Source: a virus. Taken from it: a stretch of 27,000 nt of DNA. Both the position numbers and the translations under genes were made by a program. Below the pieces are notes generated by a model. It had not been told where the DNA came from, did no database searches, and saw only the letters and a program-made list of their open reading frames with translations. The stretch's first letter is position 1; each line of letters begins with the position of its first letter. Shown here in pieces: positions 1-23,773 of the stretch. The stretch is taken from IMG/VR virus record IMGVR_UViG_3300035698_003773, positions 1 to 27,000 of that record, one strand, 5' to 3'.

Positions 1-3000
1 AAAATCTTTCTCCTGAGTATTTCGTTACCGATAAAAAGAGAATAGGTACCAATGAACAAATTAGATGGTTTAAGTTATCTAGTAATGACAAAAATACATT
101 AGATAAGGTTGTCGACGATAGAGTAGAGGGGACACTAGAAAGACTCATCAATAATGCCATTGAATTATTAGAAGATAATGTCACATTTGGAAAAAGTAGA
201 AATGAAAAGTTAATTCTAAAGGATAGTCTTACCATTACGCCAATTTCTCTCACAATGTTAAAGAATATAGAGGTTTTTTATGTTCAAAAGACAACAGTTG
301 GGGTTGATATTGATGGGGTTATGGATGCAATATATCTTGTTTTCCGAAATTTCATTGAACAACGAAACAAATTGGAAAGTGATGTCGAAGTTCATATGAA
401 TAAAATCATTAAGGCAACAAACAAGGGAATTGGGTTCGAACCAACTATTCGAAATATTATTGGTGTGGTTTTGGCCAATGCTGACACTTATGTTCGGTTG
501 ATGAAGGACGTTCACACGAAAGCGTTTGAAAGTGCTCAGGTTAGAAAGAAAATATTAACGGGGGTTCTAACTGATAGCGACGATCAAGCCAATTGTATCT
601 ATCCATGGCCTGAAATAAAGGTACAATCCGCAGGTGGTAGAGAATTAGTATTAAAGTACCCCGGATCTCGCGAGATGATCAGCAAGTTACGAAGTAATGA
701 TCGAGTTGTGTGGCCAGAGGTTGAATTCATTGAAAACTTTTATGAGATAGCGACGAAAAAGTCAGACCCATTAACAGGGGCTGAAGGTGACGTTGATACT
801 GTCGAATATATTTTTGATACCCAAGGTGGTGTGGAAAAGACAGATTTAAGTGTTTTAACAAATGTAAGAAATAACATCCCATATTCTGATAAATCGTTTA
901 GTTCTGTTTTATTTGAAATATATGAAAGGGCGAAGTACACAACGTCGATGAGTCCATTTAGTAATGATGTGATAAAGGAATTGGCGAACGCAGAATTTAA
1001 GAATTTGGAAGCTCATCTCTCGGAGGATATCGACGTTGTTGATATGTTGCAGAATAACATATCCAGTCCTAATGATCTTCTTTCATTTATGGAGGCGATG
1101 TCTACATACGATAGATTCCCATATTATGTAGATCAACTACCAACAGTATGGTACATGAAAGAGGCAATAGCACAGGATTTTACTGTGGGAAAATATATTA
1201 CGGGTACAGACGATACGGGAAGTAAAGATTTAATTTACCCAGAACTTGCGAAGTTTATAAATGAATATAAACCAGAAAGTTATAGAACAGACATTTATCC
1301 CTTTAATTCAGACACATATAGTGGGTATACAGGTGAAAGACTCGACGCTCAGGACTTACAAGTTAATGGGTTATTAACGTTAAACACCCCGAATGATTTT
1401 ATTGTTTCCCCAGAGAAACCGAAGATGTGGGTTAAAGATGGTTTTACAACCAATTTGTTTGATTACACCATAGACATTGATGGGACGGCAAAACAAATGT
1501 TAAACACCCCATATTTCCATAAACAACTTTATAGTGACTATACAAAATCCCAGGCGCGTGAGAAGTATGTGGGGTCAGCTTATCTTTTATTGAATTCATT
1601 ACCATTTAAGGACTTGGATGATACAATTAAATACACAGACGATGGTGTCCCAACATTAATGTCAACACTTTTCAGAGAAATCGGAGCTACTCACTACGTT
1701 CCATATCATATGATGTTAAAATGGGGTTCGATTTATCACAGGTATAAAAAGAGTATTGTTGATAGCGTCGACATCATTGATGGGGTTAAAGTTCCAATTG
1801 ACGGTAGTTTCTTTTATGACCAAGATAATGGGTTATATTATAACGCCATCGACGAAAGTATCGGTTTCCACCCATTTTATGAAAATGTGTTTTACGATGT
1901 TGTTAACGGAAGTGGATTCTTTGACTTAACAGAACTTGGGTACGCCACATCAATTACAACTGGTATAACCCATTTATACACACAGGAGGTTATTGACGCT
2001 AACTCATACACGAGTTTCGTCGATAATACCAAATTGGGGTTTAGCGGATATACGTTATTACCAACGAATGGTTATAACACAACTTACGGAACAGACTTCA
2101 CGAAAGCAGAACAGGAGAACTTCCGGATTGTATGGGGAACAGGAACATCGGATCAAGAGGTTATAGATTATAGCGGACAGACCATACCTAGTTATAATGA
2201 ATATTTTAAAATTACTGGGTCAACAGGGACATATTCATTATCTTCGAATCATAGAAAGGTTATTGATTTAATAGCAACTTTTAAACCAGACATTTTAGAC
2301 GTATTTGAACAGGCGTTCTTGGATTTCTCAAGTGAAAAACTTAATGAAGAGGTGTCATATTCACCATACGACATGACCTATTCTAAGTTTCAAGATTTAA
2401 TGAAGAACATTGTGTCGGTAACAAAAGAATCTAACGACATCCCAACTCCAATAACGGGAACTACCGATGAAGATCGAATTAAGTTAATGACAAAAATTAA
2501 GGGTCGACAAGTTTCCCAACTTAAAACTTTATCAAATCAATTATTATCGCCAGAAAACTTAGTAAAAATAGTATTAGCCAACCCAAGGGAAGTGGATAAC
2601 TATGTTTTAGGTGGGTTTACGGGTGTTAACGTTCAAAACTTCTCAACTAATCCATATAGTTCAGCATCTCCAGATGATATTGAACTTTATCTTGGTGAGG
2701 ATATCGACGGATACTACAACGATTTCTTCCGAACAATGGATATTGAGGTAAATGATACGAATGTTAAACAGTTCAGACCGTTGACTTATATGCACGCTGG
2801 GTTAAGAGTGAAGAATGAATATCAAAATAAAACTCAGTTTGTTGAATATTTGAAAGAAAATCTCATTTCTCCGAATTATGCCGATCCAACGACGGGAGCC
2901 CCATTAACTTCAGATAAGACTACCAATGTGAGTGGGCAAGATAAGAGGTTGTTTATTTACCTAACACGATTAATTGAGCAATTTAAGGATCTCGTACCAC

Positions 3001-4742
3001 CAACGGCAGCAGAACGGGCAACAGCCCAAAGAGGTTATAATGACGACCCAATCAAATTAGAATTGTATAATTATTTCAAATCCTTTAATGATAAATGGAC
3101 GGCAGGAAATTCAATTGGTCAAAGAACATTAATGGAAGAGTTTTTGTTCTTGGATAAAGCTAATAAGGACATCGGAAACGAGGTTTTCCTTGACATGCAG
3201 AGACTAACTAGATTGGGAGAAGCTGGAAATCGGAAGATTAATTTATTTAGTTTAATTAGTCTACTGGTTCAAGACTCAGGATTTGATATTAGAGCATTAC
3301 CTGCTTATGTCAATTTTTATGGTAATGATTTCACAAATTCGTTAAGAACAACGCCATCAAAGGATGTAGCCCAATCTATGTTTGGGGCATTTCTGGATGT
3401 GGATCATCAAGATTCATCTCCGAAGATTATTTTACAATATACAGGACCAACATCTAAACATCTTGAATTGGCGGATATTGATAAGAAACAAAATTATAAG
3501 AATGACGGGTTCGATATTGGTAATGTGACTAACAACCCAATCATCGTATCCCCGGATGTCTTTACTAAAACCGATTTTACTAAGTCAAATAAGGTTGTGG
3601 CTTTCGAAGTAAGTTTCGGTGACCAGAATCAGTCTATATTTAAAGGTGTAGAATTGGATCAATCGACATTAAAGAACACATCTGAATCCTTTGAAGTATT
3701 AGAACGACTTGGTCGAAATGAGACGGGTTCAAGTACCTCACAGATCGATATCGGGTTGTTTAACATATATAGACAGTCATCATATCAATGTACGGTGACT
3801 GCTATGGGTAACATGATGATTCAACCGACAATGTACTTCTATATTAAAAACATTCCATTATTTAGGGGGTCATATCTGATTACGGAAGTCACACATAATA
3901 TTAGAACAACTGGTGTTGAAACGTCGTTTAAGGGTACAAGAATACCCCAGGCTTCGTTACCAGATCCGTCTGACTCATTTTTAGCAAGTTATCGACCATT
4001 GTTTGATAAATTGGTAAGAAAAGCAACCGCACAAGTCAATGCTGAAATCGCGGCCTCGTTAACAGGAAATACTAGCAGTACAGCAACAACCTTAATAGAC
4101 ACTGAGGGTAAAGCCTATTCTACCGATCCAGGTGCGGTTAAAATTAAGAATGAGAAACTTCTTTCCAAAGATGTTGGTATAACTTCTTATGGAGTACCAT
4201 ATAATGGATACTTAGGCCAGTCCGATACACAATTAGTAAGATATAAGAATAAGAATATCCCAACATCGATTTATAGGCCAGAGAAGGATAAAGAGTGGTT
4301 ACGCGCGGTAGTACTTCAGATGGGTGGTCCGAATTATCCAATTGACCCCGATTCCATAATGAATATTGTGTCAAACTTAACATATGGGACAGAAGGTAAC
4401 GTTAAAAACGTAAAATGGTCAGATGTTGTATATTGGTCAATTAGTCGACCATTTTATTCGGCTAATTTTATTGTGAACGCCCCTACCCCTTCACTTAACG
4501 TAACTCCGGATAATATTCACCACAATTATAGTGTGACAGAATTTTTTAATCCATTACTTACGGGTGAGAACTCTGGATTAATTACCATTGCAGAAAATAG
4601 AAGTAATTTCACTGGTGACGTATATACTGGACCAATCAACATTGGGCCATCACTTAATGGATATGGCCTCGGATTATCTATTAATTTAATGCAAAGATTA
4701 GCGGTAAAAGATGGACAAGTTGTGTATTTCAGGATGACATAG
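1..4742 (+). CDS. Giant tail / baseplate-hub-like structural protein (5' end outside window)
   Basis: The frame is open from position 3, so the gene begins before the window. The ATG at 255 is internal: the 84 codons before it are open and read as ordinary protein. About 1,579 residues are visible, ending at TAG 4740-4742. Most of the protein is not recognisable to me; it is rich in Asp, Tyr and Asn, as large virion proteins are. Near nt 3,835-3,960 there is a stretch with PLFRGSYLITEVTHNIRT followed by ETSFKGTR. This resembles the C-terminal part of contractile-tail hub proteins (gp27/GpD-like), where a strand pair reads 'F.G.Y.I..V.H.I....F.T.F...R'. The last ~300 residues look like a separate module. 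Context with baseplate wedge genes downstream supports a tail role. The structural call is fairly secure; the hub assignment is inference. Confidence 0.6.
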   Translation, partial: NLSPEYFVTDKKRIGTNEQIRWFKLSSNDKNTLDKVVDDRVEGTLERLINNAIELLEDNVTFGKSRNEKLILKDSLTITPISLTMLKNIEVFYVQKTTVGVDIDGVMDAIYLVFRNFIEQRNKLESDVEVHMNKIIKATNKGIGFEPTIRNIIGVVLANADTYVRLMKDVHTKAFESAQVRKKILTGVLTDSDDQANCIYPWPEIKVQSAGGRELVLKYPGSREMISKLRSNDRVVWPEVEFIENFYEIATKKSDPLTGAEGDVDTVEYIFDTQGGVEKTDLSVLTNVRNNIPYSDKSFSSVLFEIYERAKYTTSMSPFSNDVIKELANAEFKNLEAHLSEDIDVVDMLQNNISSPNDLLSFMEAMSTYDRFPYYVDQLPTVWYMKEAIAQDFTVGKYITGTDDTGSKDLIYPELAKFINEYKPESYRTDIYPFNSDTYSGYTGERLDAQDLQVNGLLTLNTPNDFIVSPEKPKMWVKDGFTTNLFDYTIDIDGTAKQMLNTPYFHKQLYSDYTKSQAREKYVGSAYLLLNSLPFKDLDDTIKYTDDGVPTLMSTLFREIGATHYVPYHMMLKWGSIYHRYKKSIVDSVDIIDGVKVPIDGSFFYDQDNGLYYNAIDESIGFHPFYENVFYDVVNGSGFFDLTELGYATSITTGITHLYTQEVIDANSYTSFVDNTKLGFSGYTLLPTNGYNTTYGTDFTKAEQENFRIVWGTGTSDQEVIDYSGQTIPSYNEYFKITGSTGTYSLSSNHRKVIDLIATFKPDILDVFEQAFLDFSSEKLNEEVSYSPYDMTYSKFQDLMKNIVSVTKESNDIPTPITGTTDEDRIKLMTKIKGRQVSQLKTLSNQLLSPENLVKIVLANPREVDNYVLGGFTGVNVQNFSTNPYSSASPDDIELYLGEDIDGYYNDFFRTMDIEVNDTNVKQFRPLTYMHAGLRVKNEYQNKTQFVEYLKENLISPNYADPTTGAPLTSDKTTNVSGQDKRLFIYLTRLIEQFKDLVPPTAAERATAQRGYNDDPIKLELYNYFKSFNDKWTAGNSIGQRTLMEEFLFLDKANKDIGNEVFLDMQRLTRLGEAGNRKINLFSLISLLVQDSGFDIRALPAYVNFYGNDFTNSLRTTPSKDVAQSMFGAFLDVDHQDSSPKIILQYTGPTSKHLELADIDKKQNYKNDGFDIGNVTNNPIIVSPDVFTKTDFTKSNKVVAFEVSFGDQNQSIFKGVELDQSTLKNTSESFEVLERLGRNETGSSTSQIDIGLFNIYRQSSYQCTVTAMGNMMIQPTMYFYIKNIPLFRGSYLITEVTHNIRTTGVETSFKGTRIPQASLPDPSDSFLASYRPLFDKLVRKATAQVNAEIAASLTGNTSSTATTLIDTEGKAYSTDPGAVKIKNEKLLSKDVGITSYGVPYNGYLGQSDTQLVRYKNKNIPTSIYRPEKDKEWLRAVVLQMGGPNYPIDPDSIMNIVSNLTYGTEGNVKNVKWSDVVYWSISRPFYSANFIVNAPTPSLNVTPDNIHHNYSVTEFFNPLLTGENSGLITIAENRSNFTGDVYTGPINIGPSLNGYGLGLSINLMQRLAVKDGQVVYFRMT

Positions 4743-6823: not shown

Positions 6824-8911
6824 ATGGCCATCAAGAAGAAAGATTTTAAAAGCATCAAAGCAAAATATTCCCAAGAAGCGTCATTTAAACCTGACAGGTT
6901 TTTTGATTTGGGTGATGCGTTTTTAGATGCTTGTGGCGTACCTGGTCCTGCGATGGGACATTTAAACATGTTACTTGGTCATTCGGATACGGGTAAATCA
7001 CAACCACTACATTGTAAAATTTTATCCCCAAATGGTTGGAAAAAAATGGGGGATATTAAATTAGGTGATGAAATTTTTGGGAGGGATGGTAACCCACAAA
7101 CTGTTATTGGGGTATACCCACAAGGAGAACGACCAGTCTATCAAATCACTATGAGTGATGGTGGAACTACTATGTGTGATATTGAACATTTATGGTCAAT
7201 TAATTCACGTAAAGATAAAAATAGAAGAGAAAAAAACACAACTCAACGATATTTTCCAGATGAAACATTTAAAACGTTATCATTATCGGAAATAATATCA
7301 AAAGGGGTTAAAATGGGATTAAATTCCAATAATTTTAAAATACCATTAGTAGAACCAATAAATTTTGGTGACAAGACATTACCCATCGACCCATATGTTT
7401 TAGGTTGTATATTAGGGGACGGCCATATTGGAAAAAATGGAAATATAGTAAAAATATCAACAAAAGATGACGAGCTCACCGAATCAATTTCAAATACACC
7501 ACATTTTAGAAACGTCAACACATATACACAGGATGCAGGTACCACATTAAGAACATTACAATCCATTTCAATTACAAATGAAACTAAAAAAGAATTATAT
7601 AAATTGGGGTTAAGTGGAGTAACATCTGCAACTAAATTTATCCCAAATATATATATATTTAATTCATCGATAAGTGATAGGATATCTTTGTTACAGGGGT
7701 TAATGGATACTGATGGACATTGTAATAAACATGGAAATTCAGAATTTTATACCGTATCAGAAAAGTTAAGAGATGGTGTTACAGAAATTGTAAGAAGTTT
7801 AGGTGGTATTGTTAAGGTCACATCCAAAATACCTAAATACAAGTATAAAGATGAAACGAGAATTGGTAAAGAATCATATACCCTTAGAGTTCGTTTACCA
7901 AAAAATATTAACCCGTTTCGTTTATATAGAAAATCATCACAATTAAATAAAAATAGACGAAATGTTGATAGATATATCACTAACATATCTTACGTTGGTA
8001 TGGAAATGTGTCAATGTATCAAAGTTAGTAATCCAGATTGTTTATATATTACTGATGATTACATTGTAACACATAATACGACGGCATTAATTAATACTGC
8101 TATTGACGCTCAGAAAAAAGGGATTCTACCCGTGTTTTTAATTACAGAACAAAAATGGACTTTTGATCACGCCAAACTCATGGGTTTTGAATGTGAAAAA
8201 ATAGTAGATAAAGAAGGTGGTTCGTTATGGGATGGTTTTTTCCTTTTTAACAATCACTTTGATTATATCGAACAAATTACAGATTATGTAAATGAATTAC
8301 TAGATGCACAAGATAAGGGTGAGTTAGATTATGATTTGTGTTTTCTTTGGGATTCCGTAGGGTCTGTACCATGTAAAATGACATTTGAAGGTAAAGGTGG
8401 AAAACAGCATAACGCCGCCACGTTAGCCGACAAAATTGGAATGGGACTGAACCAGAGAATCACGGGTACCAGAAGAATGGATAAAAAACACACCAATACA
8501 TTGGTGATTGCTAACCAACCTTGGGTTGAAATTGCTGACAATCCGTTCAGTCAACCGAAAATTAAAGCTAAAGGTGGAGAGTCAATATGGCTTAATTCAA
8601 CCTTAGTTTTCTTATTTGGAAATCAGAAAAATGCAGGTATCACTAAGATATCATTCACAAAAGATGGTAGAAAAGTGAAAATCGCAACCAGAACCAAAGT
8701 TAGTGTGATGAAAAACCACGTAAATGGTCTGGGATATGAAGATGGAAGGGTTTTGGTTACAGCCCATGGGTTCATGAAGGGACGGGACACACCCACCGAG
8801 AAGAAATCCATCGAAGAATATAAGGTGTCCGCTGCGGATTATATCACAAAAAATCTAGGGGTTAACCCGTTGGATAGTGATGTTGAAGTAATAATGGAAT
8901 CAGGAGATTAA
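6824..8911 (+). CDS. uvsX: UvsX/RecA-type recombinase containing an in-frame intein
   Basis: ATP-dependent strand-exchange recombinase for phage recombination and recombination-dependent replication. The 695-aa precursor has extein parts 1-59 and 419-695; removal of the intein (60-418) leaves about 336 aa, close to RecA. Splicing would rebuild the P-loop GHSDTGKS (52-59) with TTAL following. The C-extein shows TEQ at 441-443 (E442 in the place of the RecA catalytic Glu), Walker B LCFLWD ending at D510, NQPW (564-567) and the L2-like KGGESIW (583-589). The protein cannot bind ATP normally until it splices, because the intein cuts straight after the P-loop Ser. It starts 84 bases after the SSB gene; the 98-aa gene begins 1 base after its stop. 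The RecA/UvsX family is certain; the exact subfamily is inferred from neighbours. Confidence 0.88.
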   Translation: MAIKKKDFKSIKAKYSQEASFKPDRFFDLGDAFLDACGVPGPAMGHLNMLLGHSDTGKSQPLHCKILSPNGWKKMGDIKLGDEIFGRDGNPQTVIGVYPQGERPVYQITMSDGGTTMCDIEHLWSINSRKDKNRREKNTTQRYFPDETFKTLSLSEIISKGVKMGLNSNNFKIPLVEPINFGDKTLPIDPYVLGCILGDGHIGKNGNIVKISTKDDELTESISNTPHFRNVNTYTQDAGTTLRTLQSISITNETKKELYKLGLSGVTSATKFIPNIYIFNSSISDRISLLQGLMDTDGHCNKHGNSEFYTVSEKLRDGVTEIVRSLGGIVKVTSKIPKYKYKDETRIGKESYTLRVRLPKNINPFRLYRKSSQLNKNRRNVDRYITNISYVGMEMCQCIKVSNPDCLYITDDYIVTHNTTALINTAIDAQKKGILPVFLITEQKWTFDHAKLMGFECEKIVDKEGGSLWDGFFLFNNHFDYIEQITDYVNELLDAQDKGELDYDLCFLWDSVGSVPCKMTFEGKGGKQHNAATLADKIGMGLNQRITGTRRMDKKHTNTLVIANQPWVEIADNPFSQPKIKAKGGESIWLNSTLVFLFGNQKNAGITKISFTKDGRKVKIATRTKVSVMKNHVNGLGYEDGRVLVTAHGFMKGRDTPTEKKSIEEYKVSAADYITKNLGVNPLDSDVEVIMESGD
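7001..8077 (+). mobile_element. Class 3 intein with LAGLIDADG homing endonuclease in recombinase P-loop
   Basis: This 359-codon insertion covers precursor residues 60-418 and ends in HN, followed by Thr419. It begins with Gln60 (QPLHCKILSPNGW), not Cys or Ser. The three residues that define class 3 inteins are present: Trp124 two residues after the block B His (EHLW), Cys398 at the block F position (CIKV), and Thr416 just before His417-Asn418 (VTHN). Between the splicing blocks are two LAGLIDADG-type motifs, VLGCILGDGHI (192-202) and LLQGLMDTDGH (289-299), so a homing endonuclease is probably intact. The DNA is visibly more AT-rich than the flanking extein, consistent with later arrival. Known class 3 inteins use the block F Cys as first nucleophile; this one fits that scheme. 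Confidence 0.87.
8902..8906 (+). promoter_or_regulatory. Strong AGGAG ribosome binding site
   Basis: AGGAG lies 6 bases before the ATG at 8913 and inside the last codons of the recombinase gene. It is one of only two clear Shine-Dalgarno sites in the window and supports translation of the 98-aa gene from 8913. Confidence 0.7.
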
Positions 8912-9219: not shown

Positions 9220-9975
9220 ATGACAACCTTATTAGTTGACGGAGACAATCTGTTAACAATCGGTTTTTACGGAGTTAAAAATTACTTTTACAAGGGAGAA
9301 CACATTGGGGGAATATTCCATTTCCTCAATACCCTCCGTTTATCTTTTGAGAATTACCATTTAGATAAGATAGTGGTCTTTTGGGACGGCGAGGATGGTT
9401 CTCAAGCCCGGAAGAAAATATATAGTCATTATAAAGAGTCGAGAAAGACCAAGGGTAGAACCAAAACAGAACACGAAGTTGCGTCATATGACTACCAACG
9501 CAATCGAATCAAACAATATTTAGAAGAAGTATATGTTCGCCAGGGCCAATTCTATGGATGTGAGGCGGACGATGGGTTAGCGTACTACTGTCAAAATACC
9601 CCCGATGAGAAGAAGATCATTTATTCCTCAGACGGCGACTTAGCTCAACTTGTCAGCGATAAGGTACAACTATATAATCCCCAACATAGGAAATTATACG
9701 GACCAAAAGATAGTTTCGTGTATAACAAAGAAGAGGTGTTAATTGAAAACATTGCTTTAGTTAAAATGTTGTGTGGGGATTATTCTGACGATATTGCGGG
9801 AATAAAAGGGATGGGCATTAAAACCCTGAAAGGTTTATTCCCCGAAATTACAACTCAGCCTCTTACTTTAGATTACATTCGATATAAAACAAATTTCCTG
9901 TTCGAACAGGACAAAGACAGTAAGATCGTAAAAAAATCTAATAACTGGGGTTACCAAGTATGGTGTTTATGGTGA
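9220..9975 (+). CDS. rnh: 5'-3' nuclease of the FEN / T4 RNase H type, N-terminal part (frameshifted gene)
   Basis: Removes RNA primers and 5' flaps during lagging-strand synthesis. The metal-binding acids of the FEN/PIN fold are visible: D7 and D9 (LLVDGDN), D56 (VFWDGEDG), E115/D117/D118 (CEADDGLAYY), D138 and D140 (SSDGDLAQL), and D187/D190/D191 (CGDYSDD). A helix-hairpin-helix follows (GIKGMGIKTL, 195-203). The basic helical-arch region (about 64-97) is present. After codon 238 the frame crosses seven A's (9930-9936) and ends within 13 further codons (SNNWGYQVWCLW and TGA). The natural C-terminus continues in another frame (9932-10246), so the intact protein would be about 341 aa. All catalytic residues lie before the break, so activity of the short form is possible. 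Confidence 0.85.
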   Translation: MTTLLVDGDNLLTIGFYGVKNYFYKGEHIGGIFHFLNTLRLSFENYHLDKIVVFWDGEDGSQARKKIYSHYKESRKTKGRTKTEHEVASYDYQRNRIKQYLEEVYVRQGQFYGCEADDGLAYYCQNTPDEKKIIYSSDGDLAQLVSDKVQLYNPQHRKLYGPKDSFVYNKEEVLIENIALVKMLCGDYSDDIAGIKGMGIKTLKGLFPEITTQPLTLDYIRYKTNFLFEQDKDSKIVKKSNNWGYQVWCLW

Positions 9976-10246
9976 TGAGTTTTTTGATATCAATAACACC
10001 ATTGTAAGTTTAGACGACCCGTTTTTAACTGAGGAAGCGAAAGAGGGTGTACATGAAATTATTAACGAGAACCTAGACCCCGAAGGAAGGTCATACAAAA
10101 ACACAATGAAGATGATGATGGAGGACGGTTTGTTTAACGTTTTACCTAAATCGGATGATGCGTGGATTAAGTTTCTTAATCCCTTTTTAAAATTAACAAG
10201 AAAAGAAAAGAATAAGAAAAAACAATTAAAATTTCTAAAAAATTAA
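9932..10246 (+). CDS. rnh: C-terminal part of the FEN / RNase H-type nuclease in a shifted frame
   Basis: This frame has no start codon of its own at the break but is open from 9932 to TAA 10244-10246. It reads KNLITGVTKYGVYGDEFFDINN onward, a natural continuation of the nuclease, then an acidic helical region (LTEEAKEGVHEI) and a very basic end (LTRKEKNKKKQLKFLKN). Compared with the upstream frame, the ribosome would have to skip one base (or slip back two). With six A's instead of seven at 9930-9936 the two parts would be one gene. The next gene starts 4 bases after its stop, which is normal spacing and supports this stop as the real gene end. Confidence 0.75.
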   Translation, partial: KNLITGVTKYGVYGDEFFDINNTIVSLDDPFLTEEAKEGVHEIINENLDPEGRSYKNTMKMMMEDGLFNVLPKSDDAWIKFLNPFLKLTRKEKNKKKQLKFLKN

Positions 10247-10250
10247 GATT

Positions 10251-17559: not shown

Positions 17560-18678
17560 ATGTTTAAAGGATATAAATACAGAATATTCCCAACCGAAAA
17601 ACAAAAAGACCAATTGCAACGGTATTTTGGGGTAAATAGGTTGGTTTATAATCTTGGTTTGGAAACGAAGACTGTTGCATATGTGTCTAATGAAAAGTCA
17701 ATATCTAAATATGATTTAATAAAACAATTACCCGAACTAAGAAAAGAGTTTGATTATATAAAGGACTGTCCAAGTCAAGTATTACAATATAGTATAATTA
17801 ATCTTGATACCGCCTATCAAAATTTTTTTAAATGTAAAGGACAATTCCCTAAATTTAAAAATAAATACACTAAACAGTCAATTACGTTCCCACAAGGGTT
17901 TGAAATATCTTTTGAGAATGATATTTTAAAATTACCTAAACTAAAAGAGGTTTCTATTGATTATCATAGAGAATTTAAAGGGGTACCTAAAAGAGTTACA
18001 TTAACAAAAACTACAACGGATAAATACTTTGCATCAATATTAGTTGATACCCAAACAGAATACCCAAAACAAAAGTCGGTTAAAACAGAAACATCGGTTG
18101 GTGTTGATTTTGGAATTAAAGATTTAGCAATTACTTCTGATGGTGCAGTATACGAAAATAAAAACTTTTTCAAATCACAACAAAAAACATTAAGAAAAGA
18201 ACAAAGAAGCCTTGCGAGAAAACAGAAGGGTTCAATAAATAGAAGAAAACAAAAATTAAAGGTAGCGTTACTGCAAGAGAAAATTCGTAACCAAAGGGTT
18301 GACTACTTACATAAAATATCTACTGAATTAGTAAACGCTTATGAAACAATTGTATTGGAAGATTTAGCGGTTAGCAATATGGTTAAAAACCATTGTCTCG
18401 CTAAAGCTATTTCTGATATGGGTTGGAGACAATTAAGAACGATGCTTGAATATAAAACTGAATGGCAAGGTAAAAACCTTGTTGTAATTGGTAGGTTTGA
18501 ACCAAGTAGTAAAGTGTGCTCTAATTGTGGATACCACAAGAAAGATTTAAAACTTTCAGATAGAATATATAATTGTAATAAGTGTGAGAATTCAATAGAT
18601 AGGGATTTAAATGCCGCGTATAACATAAAGAATTTTGGGGTTAGGGACAACCCTTTGTACGCTAATGTAAACCATTAG
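17560..18678 (+). CDS. tnpB: TnpB, RNA-guided nuclease of IS200/IS605 family
   Basis: TnpB proteins use an omegaRNA from the element's right end to cut DNA next to a short target motif; they are relatives of Cas12. The 372-aa protein appears complete: N-terminal helix-turn-helix/wedge region (KGYKYRIFPTEKQ, NRLVYNLGLE), RuvC-I D183 (GVDFGIKDLA), RuvC-II E267 (TIVLEDLAVSNM), a four-Cys zinc finger C320, C323, C339 and C342, and RuvC-III DRDLNAAYNI (347-356; D349 is the likely catalytic residue). All three catalytic acids are kept, so nuclease activity is plausible. The start at 17560 has no Shine-Dalgarno sequence. Codons are more AT-rich than those of the neighbouring tail genes, which fits acquisition. 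Confidence 0.92.
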   Translation: MFKGYKYRIFPTEKQKDQLQRYFGVNRLVYNLGLETKTVAYVSNEKSISKYDLIKQLPELRKEFDYIKDCPSQVLQYSIINLDTAYQNFFKCKGQFPKFKNKYTKQSITFPQGFEISFENDILKLPKLKEVSIDYHREFKGVPKRVTLTKTTTDKYFASILVDTQTEYPKQKSVKTETSVGVDFGIKDLAITSDGAVYENKNFFKSQQKTLRKEQRSLARKQKGSINRRKQKLKVALLQEKIRNQRVDYLHKISTELVNAYETIVLEDLAVSNMVKNHCLAKAISDMGWRQLRTMLEYKTEWQGKNLVVIGRFEPSSKVCSNCGYHKKDLKLSDRIYNCNKCENSIDRDLNAAYNIKNFGVRDNPLYANVNH

Positions 18679-18769: not shown

Positions 18770-21700
18770 ATGACACAAAAACACAGAATAAACACCAATA
18801 TCGGGAGAGATCAGAAAGTTAGTGTCGAGATTAATCAATCATGGGATTTGATGGAAATTCTCTCTCTGAAATTTTCACAAAAAGATGTTTTTGCTTCCGG
18901 TAATTGCTCTGAGTACGGTGTGGTTGTTGGACGCGTATCAGCCAACGACGGATTCGGTATCCCAAACGCAAAGGTTTCAATATTTATTCCACAAGATACT
19001 ATGGATGCGGATGACCCAGTCATCTCAGCATTATACCCATATCAAGAAATAAGTGATGTGGATGAAAATGGATATCGTTATAATTTATTACCTGAAAGAC
19101 AACAGCATTCTGGGCACGCTCCAACAGGGACGTTCCCCGACCAACAAGACATTTTAACCAGAGAAGAAGTTCTCGAAGTTTTTGAAAGTTATTACAAATA
19201 TACAGTAAAAACTAACGATGCTGGTGACTTCATGATTTGGGGAGTCCCAATTGGCGTTCAGACCATACATGTCGACTTAGATTTATCCGATATTGGTTGT
19301 TTCTCACTCAGACCTTATGATTTCATTAAAAAAGGATACGGGATTGATGATTTTGAGAGATATTACCAGTTCAAATCAAGTTCAGATATCGCAGGATTAC
19401 CACAAATTGTGACATTTGATAGAAGTATTGAAGTTTACCCATTATGGGGTAACGAGGATCTTTGTGAAATCGGGATAAGTAGAACTGATTTCGATTTGTC
19501 CGACAAAGGAATTAAGATAGAACCAATATCGTTGGTTTTATTGTCAACAGTTACAGATGATAGTAGTGATGCTGTTAAAAGGAACGGTAAGATTAGAAAG
19601 AACACTGGTTATAAATGTAATATACAAACTACGGGTGGACAAATTGAATGTGTTAGACAAACAGGTCAACAAGTTTATGGGTCAGACGGAGAAACAGTAT
19701 ACCCTGAGTTAGAATACTTTAACATATCAGAGGTTATTAATGAGGATGGCGTCGCGATGGTTCCCATCCCAATGAACTTGGAATATGTATACACAAATGA
19801 GTTTGGCGAAGAGGAAATCACAAATAACCCGAATAAAGGAATCCCAACCACTACGGTCACTAGGTTTAGATTTAGTTTAGATTATAAGTCATCAAAAATT
19901 GCAACGGCGAAATATCTCGTACCGAACATTCGAGAATTCAACCCATCTTCAACAGGAGAAAATGACAAATATGAATATCAGGAAAGTATGGTTACATCGT
20001 ACATGTTCTCTGATGTCTTTGAAGATTATTTAACAATTCCAACGGGTTCTACGATAACATTATCTAGCACAAATTATGGTACAACAGAAAAAGATCATAA
20101 AAAGGATCTAATGTTGGGGACAAATAATGATGGAATACCTGAAGATTATTTCTATAAATTTGTTTACGGTAAGGTTTATACGGTTTCTTCTTTTCAAGGA
20201 ACACATTATGAGACGGCAAGACGGGACGCATTTCTTGGTATTAAACAAATTCGTCCAGCTGAGGATGAGGATTGTGCCTCTCAAACGAATTATATTCCAA
20301 CAAATTTTGGATTTAAAAACCGAACAAAATTCTCATTATTACTCGCACAGGTAATATTATTTGTTCAGTATATTTTCGCGATTATTCTTGTAAAATTTGC
20401 TGAGGTCTTTGGGGCGTTTTTATATCGTGTGGGGGTACAGATGTATAATGTTACAATTTTAAAACGATGGAGACCACTCCAAAGGATAGGGGAAAGGTTT
20501 CAAGATATGGGGTATCGAATACAAGATAGATTCACAAAAATATTACCATTAACAATTTATCCTGATTGTGAAGAATGTACGAGTGATGATGATGCGTTTA
20601 CAACCGATTCATCATATATTGACAATTATTGTCGAATGGGAGAATTGGGCATGAACGTTATTGTTGATAATGGTACTGTCTACGCCTATACTCCACTTTA
20701 TAACCCCGCCTTTTACTATACAGGGTCAACGCCTAGTTATTTATCCAACGGAGACGATCCATATAATGGATTATTTCCAGAGGACACAGCCCAAGATATT
20801 GAAGATTTATGCTCAGGTAAAACCCCTGTTAGTTTTTGGGATTTACGTGATATGGACGACGAAACAGTAGTACCGATTACCCCAGATTATAGAACAGAAC
20901 AATTTTTTGCTCAAATGTATTCATTTCGAGAAGATTGGGATCAACCATCTATTGTTAGTGGTTCAACGGGGTTTGGTGAGGTGACACTTTTCTTTAATGA
21001 TCGAGCCTCCCCATATGACAGGCCGGAAGACACTATTATGAATTATGGTAATCCGGGTGCTTGGGGAACTGATACCTTATATATTCAGAAAACATATGCT
21101 GAATGGTTAGAACTAACAGGTATGGATTTGGAAACGGATAGTGATTTGGTAGATTGGATAAACGATGAGCGTGATTTGAATATTGTATTGAGATTATATA
21201 ATAAAGACTGGCCAAAAAACACGCCAGACGATAGTGGTGGTCTTGATATTGAAACCGGATGTGAGAAATATGATAAAATGTATAATGAAACGGTAACTCT
21301 TGGTTATATATGGTCGTCTGGATCCACATATGGTTCATTTTTACAACCTTGGAATCCAACCGGAATACCTGAATCAGTTGAGAATGTGGCATCATATTCC
21401 GACGCTCCAGGTTTCTTAGAATTCCTTCCAGATACAATCCCCGTAGCTCCGTATGCAAATTTAATGTCCACATTGGTTGGTAATTCGTCGACAGGTAGGA
21501 TGCCATTTAAACTTTTCTTTAAGAAAATTGGGTTACAGGTGTATGATAGGAAAACAAAATCGGGATTATCAGAATTTAGGGATGGGATCTTTACTATTAT
21601 TCCAGTAATTTCGGGAAAGAGTTATAGTGTGAAATTTTTACAAGAATGGTACAGAAGAAAACGAATCGGATTAACGTTTTGTGGTGGTGTTGTGAATTAT

Positions 21701-23773
21701 TCATTTATAGATAATTGGTTACATGGGTTATTTTATTTCTTTAAGTTCGATAATCGGATAAGGTGGGATAGTGAAGAAGATTATGATCTTAATCAAAGGG
21801 GGTCAAAATATCCGAGGGAGTTGGTTTTTTATAACATCACAGATAAAGAATTTTATTATAGAAGTTGCCCATATTCTGGAAACACATTTATCGGTCAGAC
21901 GTTTGATGGAATTAAAGAAATATTACACCCAACCACATTTTATGATGTTGGTGTAAGAGATGAGTTTTTAAATGAAATATGTTTAGATCCAAGAGTCGAC
22001 CCAAACTGTTCTGTCGTTAGGGACATTTCAAATACATCCTACCAAGATCCTGGAACAGTGGTGGAACACGCCATTAATTATCGTTTAGATGTGACTGACG
22101 GAGAGTTCGATGTTGATGATTTCTTTAGTGGGTCAAATTATGGGTCAAATATAAAGGTGTTTGATGGCGACGTTACCCAATTAATGTCAATTAATTGTGA
22201 GACAGGAATCGAGGCGTTTGATTTAGACACCCCACATTATTTTATGTATAACGGCGAGCTTATGGATCCCGAAACCCCTACATTTGATGACTATTTTAAA
22301 GGTGGTGGATTTACTTTTGGTCCAGTACCAATTGATTTAAAACTTGATAGTAATGGGGCATATATCAGAAGTTGCTTAAATTCTCGCCTTGGTGATTATA
22401 GTCAGAAAGTACCCTTTTATTTGTGGGATAAGGGTGCCGAAGGATTTGGCCCATATAATACTACCACATCAGACGACCAAGCGTGGGATAAGACCGAAAT
22501 TGGACATATGAGATTACAAAGATTATTTTCAGTGAGCGGAACGACTACTGCCGATCTTCTGAACTCCAATTATGTGATGAAAGATAATGAAGAAGAATAT
22601 CTTTTGAGACCTATGACAATTGACCACCCAGATTACTGGTTTAATGGTGATTATGAAGATTCTTTGGAACGATTTGAAGTTATTGAATATCATAATAATC
22701 CAGCAGTTGACACATCAATAGGGGCGGCTCAGGCGGCAGGATATATAGAGGGTAACTTATGGTTGGCCGTAGTGTCTGGATCAAAATCAGATCCACAGTC
22801 GGGTTACCTTTATGTTGTTGTCAATAGTACGTGGACAGTACAATCTGAATCGTATTTTAAGGGGGTATATGAAACATTCTTACCAGAAACCGCACTAAAT
22901 TACGTGGGTAACAAACAAGTCCTCTCAACACCATTTTTATTCTATTTCGGAATTAGACCAGGAAAAACCGCAATAGATTTATTAACAAAATATTTTGGTA
23001 CTAAAGGGGCGTTTGCAACAACCGCAATAGATTGTCCGACGTATGGCGCCACACCAACACCATCCCCAACTCCGGCGTCATCTCAATTACCTGAGCCAAC
23101 CCCACTACCGACTGGGGCGTTTGTCACACCAACACCATCCCCAATTTATGGTAACCTATATTATCAAAACGACACATATGGAAATACTGGCACGGAGGAC
23201 GCAACTATTTACCATCCGGCTTACTCCACGTTTACCGTTATGGATAACGATACAGATATAACACTGGCTGGTAGTATTTCCAGTAGCCCATTAGGTGTTC
23301 GAGTAATGAAACCAGGAGCAACTGAATATGATCTAGCCGATGGGGCGGTATTAATACCACATCGTAGAACTAAAAACACAAGTGGTTCTTGGAGTACATT
23401 AACGGGAGTTCCAAATTATCTTTCTACCGATTATAGTTGTGATTTTGGTACATATGATTATTTGATAGAAATTTGGACGCCAGGAACACCAACACCCCCA
23501 ACTCCAGAGATATTTGGATATTGGGACACCACATTTGGATCTGAAGCTCTGGCATGTGCCCAATATTATCCTAACGAAAATTCTTATTTATGCCCCGCTG
23601 GAACAACAACACCAGTTGTTGGTAATTATTTATACTTGAACTCAGATTGTACATCAGGATTACCATATGCGGGGTATAATCAATGGTATATGTTATATTA
23701 TAACGGAACTAAATGGGCCGTTCAAACCTCAAATACGGGTTCGGGTTATATATCCGCAATAAGTTCTTGTTAA
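18770..23773 (+). CDS. Giant virion protein, probable tail-tip / fibre-network protein
   Basis: 1,667 aa; function not recognised overall. Near the N-terminus a carboxypeptidase-regulatory / Cna-B-like fold is suggested by EYGVVVGRVSANDGFGIPNAK and, after an insertion, by VKTNDAGDFMIWGVPIGVQT. Residues 521-541 are strongly hydrophobic (FSLLLAQVILFVQYIFAIILV), continue as an amphipathic stretch to about 552, and lead into a basic segment (LKRWRPLQRIGERF). The bulk (about 600-1420) is rich in Tyr, Asp and Gly, like tail structural proteins. A Pro-Thr linker (about 1423-1462) precedes a small domain, then a second linker (about 1570-1580), then a Cys-flanked C-terminal module (to 1667) ending in ISSC. 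It follows the TnpB element and leads into two further tail-like genes. There is no Shine-Dalgarno sequence; the leader has TATTTATA at 18756-18763. Confidence 0.72.
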   Translation: MTQKHRINTNIGRDQKVSVEINQSWDLMEILSLKFSQKDVFASGNCSEYGVVVGRVSANDGFGIPNAKVSIFIPQDTMDADDPVISALYPYQEISDVDENGYRYNLLPERQQHSGHAPTGTFPDQQDILTREEVLEVFESYYKYTVKTNDAGDFMIWGVPIGVQTIHVDLDLSDIGCFSLRPYDFIKKGYGIDDFERYYQFKSSSDIAGLPQIVTFDRSIEVYPLWGNEDLCEIGISRTDFDLSDKGIKIEPISLVLLSTVTDDSSDAVKRNGKIRKNTGYKCNIQTTGGQIECVRQTGQQVYGSDGETVYPELEYFNISEVINEDGVAMVPIPMNLEYVYTNEFGEEEITNNPNKGIPTTTVTRFRFSLDYKSSKIATAKYLVPNIREFNPSSTGENDKYEYQESMVTSYMFSDVFEDYLTIPTGSTITLSSTNYGTTEKDHKKDLMLGTNNDGIPEDYFYKFVYGKVYTVSSFQGTHYETARRDAFLGIKQIRPAEDEDCASQTNYIPTNFGFKNRTKFSLLLAQVILFVQYIFAIILVKFAEVFGAFLYRVGVQMYNVTILKRWRPLQRIGERFQDMGYRIQDRFTKILPLTIYPDCEECTSDDDAFTTDSSYIDNYCRMGELGMNVIVDNGTVYAYTPLYNPAFYYTGSTPSYLSNGDDPYNGLFPEDTAQDIEDLCSGKTPVSFWDLRDMDDETVVPITPDYRTEQFFAQMYSFREDWDQPSIVSGSTGFGEVTLFFNDRASPYDRPEDTIMNYGNPGAWGTDTLYIQKTYAEWLELTGMDLETDSDLVDWINDERDLNIVLRLYNKDWPKNTPDDSGGLDIETGCEKYDKMYNETVTLGYIWSSGSTYGSFLQPWNPTGIPESVENVASYSDAPGFLEFLPDTIPVAPYANLMSTLVGNSSTGRMPFKLFFKKIGLQVYDRKTKSGLSEFRDGIFTIIPVISGKSYSVKFLQEWYRRKRIGLTFCGGVVNYSFIDNWLHGLFYFFKFDNRIRWDSEEDYDLNQRGSKYPRELVFYNITDKEFYYRSCPYSGNTFIGQTFDGIKEILHPTTFYDVGVRDEFLNEICLDPRVDPNCSVVRDISNTSYQDPGTVVEHAINYRLDVTDGEFDVDDFFSGSNYGSNIKVFDGDVTQLMSINCETGIEAFDLDTPHYFMYNGELMDPETPTFDDYFKGGGFTFGPVPIDLKLDSNGAYIRSCLNSRLGDYSQKVPFYLWDKGAEGFGPYNTTTSDDQAWDKTEIGHMRLQRLFSVSGTTTADLLNSNYVMKDNEEEYLLRPMTIDHPDYWFNGDYEDSLERFEVIEYHNNPAVDTSIGAAQAAGYIEGNLWLAVVSGSKSDPQSGYLYVVVNSTWTVQSESYFKGVYETFLPETALNYVGNKQVLSTPFLFYFGIRPGKTAIDLLTKYFGTKGAFATTAIDCPTYGATPTPSPTPASSQLPEPTPLPTGAFVTPTPSPIYGNLYYQNDTYGNTGTEDATIYHPAYSTFTVMDNDTDITLAGSISSSPLGVRVMKPGATEYDLADGAVLIPHRRTKNTSGSWSTLTGVPNYLSTDYSCDFGTYDYLIEIWTPGTPTPPTPEIFGYWDTTFGSEALACAQYYPNENSYLCPAGTTTPVVGNYLYLNSDCTSGLPYAGYNQWYMLYYNGTKWAVQTSNTGSGYISAISSC
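23050..23144 (+). repeat. Exact 20-base direct repeat in a Pro-Thr linker
   Basis: The same 20 bases occur at 23050-23069 and 23125-23144, 75 bases (25 codons) apart and in frame. They encode the TPTPSP core of the linker. Such repeats can recombine and change linker length or swap the domain that follows. Confidence 0.85.

Follow-up and report, generated by a model that had tools for sequence, protein, structure and literature searches.

A class 3 intein with a LAGLIDADG endonuclease in the Walker A motif of a phage UvsX-like recombinase

Results

The window, by which we mean the whole stretch of DNA analysed, is a 27-kb IMG/VR virus record. One of its open reading frames (6824–8911) encodes a UvsX-like recombinase whose Walker A motif is split by an intein, and three related viral contigs, L001, L002 and L182, carry a UvsX intein at the same site. 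The features of the locus are as follows.

6824–8911, + strand: uvsX-like recombinase gene, an ORF encoding an intein-containing precursor of 695 aa (phrog_97 UvsX match for the precursor and for intein-free homologues)
6824–6997, + strand: N-extein, Met1–Lys58, the last residue being the Walker A lysine (GHSDTGK), from alignment against intein-free alleles
6998–8077, + strand: intein of 360 aa, Ser1 (Ser59) to Asn360 (Asn418), from exact empty-site comparison, profile alignment to residue 1 of 6rix, and structure
6998–7000, + strand: intein residue 1, Ser59 (TCA); Ser in L001, Ala in L002 and L182
7187–7195, + strand: block B His122 (B:10), Leu123 and Trp124 (B:12, the W of WCT); His in 97 and Trp in 96 of 97 distinct sequences
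7400–7426, + strand: first LAGLIDADG/DOD motif, LGCILGDGH, conserved in the family alignment
7688–7720, + strand: second LAGLIDADG/DOD motif, LLQGLMDTDGH (PF14528, E = 1.6e-7)
8015–8017, + strand: Cys398 (F:4, intein Cys340), the presumed initiating nucleophile; present in 97 of 97 distinct sequences and aligned with MchDnaB1 Cys124
8069–8077, + strand: Thr416 (G:5, the T of WCT), His417 and Asn418, each in 97 of 97
8078–8911, + strand: C-extein, whose first residue, Thr419, is the putative +1 nucleophile and the Walker A Thr of the spliced protein

The description of the host in an earlier note on this DNA, as a UvsX/RecA-like protein interrupted at its P-loop, is borne out. Intein-free homologues match phrog_97 (UvsX) with E values of 1e-11 to 6e-14 and PDB chains of RecA fusions with an E value of 1e-10, their Pfam RecA score lying under the cut-off of that family. 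A gp32-like gene lies upstream, and an RNase H-like exonuclease gene and then a DnaB helicase gene lie downstream; Flavobacterium phage immuto has the same gene order, with uvsX between the gp32 and RNase H genes. In the window, the ORF of this RNase H-like 5' exonuclease (9220–10247) stops early, at 9975, and the C-terminal part that one would expect is encoded in a different frame, as far as about 10247; in L182, a single ORF encodes the homologue. This frameshift, near a GGGG run, is either genuine or an assembly error.

The limits of the insert follow from comparison with empty sites, a search that the earlier note had proposed for related phages. Related viral contigs provided 84 distinct 150-nt contexts of the site, 80 of them intein-free, with Thr immediately 3' of GK, and the other four intein-bearing. 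The intein-free alleles read GH(S/T)DTGK-T at both the protein and the codon level. Because Thr directly follows GK in every intein-free context, the insert comprises Ser59 to Asn418 (6998–8077). The same register is found in a profile of related inteins, in which Ser59 aligns with the first residue of 6rix, the crystal chain of the class 3 intein MchDnaB1, and in a structural alignment, in which it pairs with the first residue of 6bs8, also of class 3. The insert had previously been placed at 7001–8077; its end stands, but its start was one codon late. Thus, residue 1 is Ser59 and the supposed Gln1 is residue 2. Among the four UvsX inteins found, the window and L001 copies have Ser at residue 1 and the L002 and L182 copies have Ala, so the special interest that had been attached to Gln1 is gone. 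A chimeric assembly can be ruled out, as the independent contigs L001, L002 and L182 show the same arrangement. One related phage class 3 intein, in L175 (from 2501), truly starts with Gln (GGGK-QQPLSSK, where the hyphen marks the insertion point).

The residues that the earlier note had read as a class 3 signature, Trp124 in EHLW, Cys398 in CIKV and Thr416 ahead of the final His-Asn, lie where it had put them. Across 97 distinct related inteins, these three are present in 96, 97 and 97 sequences, respectively, which supports a class 3 intein with Cys398 as nucleophile. Residue 1 is far freer. In 86 relatives, the residue right after GK is Ala (46), Gly (9), Phe (7), Ser (6), Glu (5), Leu (4), Val (3), Cys (3), Asp (2) or Gln (1), and a position so variable is unlikely to be a nucleophile. 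Of 99 related inteins, 92 have Thr at +1 and 7 have Ser. Cys64, raised beforehand as the competing nucleophile, is Cys in 3 of 97 relatives, and the three UvsX inteins outside the window all have Ser there; this position is not conserved, which rules it out. The only cysteines kept in all four UvsX inteins are, in intein numbering, Cys340 (Cys398 of the precursor) and block B Cys60; neither Cys64 nor Cys396 is retained.

Two published definitions can be applied to these data. In the working definition of PMC7891396, a class 3 intein has WCT and a residue 1 other than Cys; here WCT is present and residue 1 is Ser. In PMC5222942, residue 1 is dispensable as a nucleophile; it is Ser1 here and Ala1 in two same-site relatives, and the position is free across the family. 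This pattern of conservation strongly supports a class 3 mechanism that would be initiated by Cys398, although Ser1 could in principle leave a minor class 1-like route.

We modelled the intein with AlphaFold2 from an alignment of 71 inteins (window and viral-contig rows) and obtained a mean pLDDT of 95.4. As a whole, the model resembles PI-SceI (Z about 27 over 331–337 residues). Its splicing domain is closest to the class 3 DnaB intein 6bs8 (Z = 19.8, rmsd 1.4 Å, 123 residues), with the class 1 gp41-1 intein slightly below (Z = 18.2) and the RecA intein further below (Z about 16 over 132 residues). This best fold match of the modelled splicing domain, together with the sequence profile match to 6rix (E = 5.5e-23), would group the intein with those of class 3.

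Both DOD motifs noticed earlier are confirmed at their positions and are intact. With their acidic residues and the two-domain, PI-SceI-like fold of the model, they point to a LAGLIDADG endonuclease. The coding sequences of both domains bear the mark of purifying selection: between the window and L001, dN/dS is 0.20 for the endonuclease (bootstrap 0.12–0.30) and 0.26 for the splicing part (0.15–0.40). Base composition differs between intein (GC 30%, GC3 18%) and extein (GC 38%, GC3 33%). The exteins of the window and L001 are 97% identical, with a dS of 0.46 against 0.53–0.90 in neighbouring genes, whereas dS for the intein is 1.31, a synonymous rate possibly inflated by the AT bias of the insert. 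The high value is compatible with separate histories for the window and L001 inteins, or else with faster evolution.

The UvsX inteins form one clade (support 96/97) and sit on separate branches of the extein tree, which needs at least two changes between presence and absence. Their occurrence is sporadic, with the four intein-bearing contexts set against 80 empty ones, and may reflect independent gain or vertical inheritance with losses. In the L002 UvsX intein (3175–4035), the endonuclease has decayed (LGGVNSF, GLIESDSF; mostly lost) and WCT is intact; this allele is a natural step toward a mini-intein.

In a phage collection, 771 of 50,697 records have relatives of the intein, with a best identity of 37.7%. 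Among the phage matches listed, the annotations are mostly helicases, terminases and primases, in agreement with the earlier remark that class 3 inteins are known mainly from helicases and terminases, and no UvsX host occurs among these records. The only UvsX hosts among 99 related inteins are L001 and L002. We do not claim an origin from DnaB P-loop inteins, whose grouping with the UvsX clade is weakly supported (86/31). Nor did a scan of genome contigs yield a cellular source for the UvsX intein; the single relative was in L259, where a terminase-like gene carries a class 3 intein.

Other inteins occur in the related contigs. The DnaB helicase genes of L001 (ORF from 6885) and L002 (ORF from 6338; also L117) have class 3 inteins of their own at GK-T, near the UvsX intein; the DnaB site of the window (GIGK-TTW) is empty. 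In L182, an ORF from 4949 resembling a ribonucleotide reductase small subunit holds a second intein-like insertion, which starts CVSPETMVLTDKGYF and is class 1 in appearance.

Discussion

Our results are best explained, with high confidence, by a mobile, full-length class 3 intein, consisting of a Hint domain and a two-motif LAGLIDADG endonuclease, between Walker A Lys58 and Thr419 of a UvsX-like recombinase. In the expected pathway, Cys398 would attack the Lys58-Ser59 bond to form a thioester (the block F branched intermediate), the acyl group would transfer to Thr419 at +1, and Asn418 would then cyclise. An O-N shift would leave GHSDTGK-TTAL as an intact P-loop in a recombinase of 335 aa, rather than the GHSDTGKS-TT that had been anticipated and that has one residue too many. 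The endonuclease, for its part, would cut the intein-free GK-T site in co-infecting phages, and recombination would copy the intein into the cut site.

Several known systems resemble this one. The mycobacterial class 3 DnaB inteins (MsmDnaBi1, 6bs8; MchDnaB1, 6rix) have in common with the window intein the Hint fold, WCT, the THN end, the register of residue 1 and an ATPase host (PMC6195587, PMC7664689), but they are mini-inteins without an endonuclease in a cellular DnaB, and residue 1 is Ala in 6rix rather than Ser. In phages, the full-length class 3 inteins of helicases, terminases, primases and SNF2/DarB-like genes share an A-Q-P-L-type start, WCT and the LAGLIDADG endonuclease; most occupy the same GK-T site as here, and the host gene differs. 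The mycobacteriophage TerL1-a inteins likewise lie between the Walker A Lys and Thr, in a terminase, and this TerL site is a classic P-loop insertion (PMC5050341). The Mycobacterium tuberculosis RecA intein is also inside a RecA-family recombinase (PMC5050341); unlike the window intein, it belongs to class 1 (PMC6195587), and it is a weaker structural match.

Two other readings concern the start of the intein and its first residue. If the intein began at Gln60, as previously proposed, the recombinase would keep Ser59 and the spliced junction would read GHSDTGKSTTAL. Its Walker A motif, GKS, would be a legal P-loop, but this boundary is almost certainly wrong: it leaves one surplus residue relative to every intein-free allele, it would give GKA in L002 and L182, and it departs from the crystal class 3 inteins, which put residue 1 at Ser59. 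It is likewise very unlikely, if somewhat less so, that splicing follows a class 1 route in which Ser59 forms the initial ester, with Cys398 merely a structural or assisting F:4 residue. The window and L001 inteins do have Ser at residue 1, and an F:4 Cys is known in class 1 inteins too (PMC4031507). However, the same-site inteins of L002 and L182 have Ala1, most relatives have a non-nucleophilic residue at position 1 but a nearly invariant WCT, and the closest matches of the splicing domain are class 3 crystal structures.

The remaining alternatives concern what the class 3 intein does in its host. We consider it extremely unlikely that the intein is dead or decaying and has lost splicing. 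Decay is found in the family, as in the L002 endonuclease, and a class 3 pseudogene has been described in Arthrobacter FB24 (PMC3196547), but in the window the splicing residues and both DOD motifs are complete, the frame is open and both domains are under purifying selection; loss of splicing would, moreover, inactivate the recombinase. Judged from these features, the insert is a genuine phage intein of class 3 that carries a homing endonuclease and is probably active. Because the P-loop is split in the unspliced precursor, the recombinase should stay inactive until splicing, and the earlier note had suggested that splicing could act as a control point. We give a small chance to the idea that the intein is kept as a switch, restraining UvsX until conditions for splicing, such as redox state, are suitable. 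The class 3 DnaB intein MsmDnaBi1 has a redox-sensitive catalytic cysteine (PMC6195587), and the window intein has CQC, with Cys338 two residues from the catalytic Cys340, as well as the conserved block B Cys60. Yet CxC in combination with Cys60 occurs in just 16 of 97 relatives, L002 has Thr at 338 and close relatives lack the intein. Sporadic presence and an intact endonuclease under purifying selection are what is expected of a mobile element, and a control point is not supported. A slightly smaller chance attaches to a fuller scheme in which splicing regulates UvsX in infection: the endonuclease would make a break, excision of the intein would free the recombinase that repairs it, and CxC with Cys60 would be a redox gate on recombination-dependent replication.

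The insert, then, is an ordinary mobile class 3 phage intein, and the open-licence papers searched describe no intein of this class in UvsX. Class 3 inteins number 1701 in nr, 82.5% of them with LAGLIDADG (PMC7891396); the kind is well known, and a UvsX host adds modestly to it. A phage recombinase joins the hosts of class 3 inteins, and GK-T is occupied in both UvsX and DnaB of related phages. In T4, mobile introns need UvsX/RecA function for their homing (PMC2988022), so a UvsX intein has to splice before the recombinase on which its own homing probably depends is released. The presence of full, decayed and absent alleles within one gene family makes the intein life cycle testable, and the corrected boundary is important for the design of splicing constructs.

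Elsewhere in the window are two very large ORFs, at 255–4742 (1495 aa; no Pfam or PHROG match) and 18770–23773 (1667 aa; no Pfam match). An IS605 OrfB/TnpB-like gene at 17560–18678 (PF01385, with a Cas12f1-like TNB domain) adjoins the baseplate genes.
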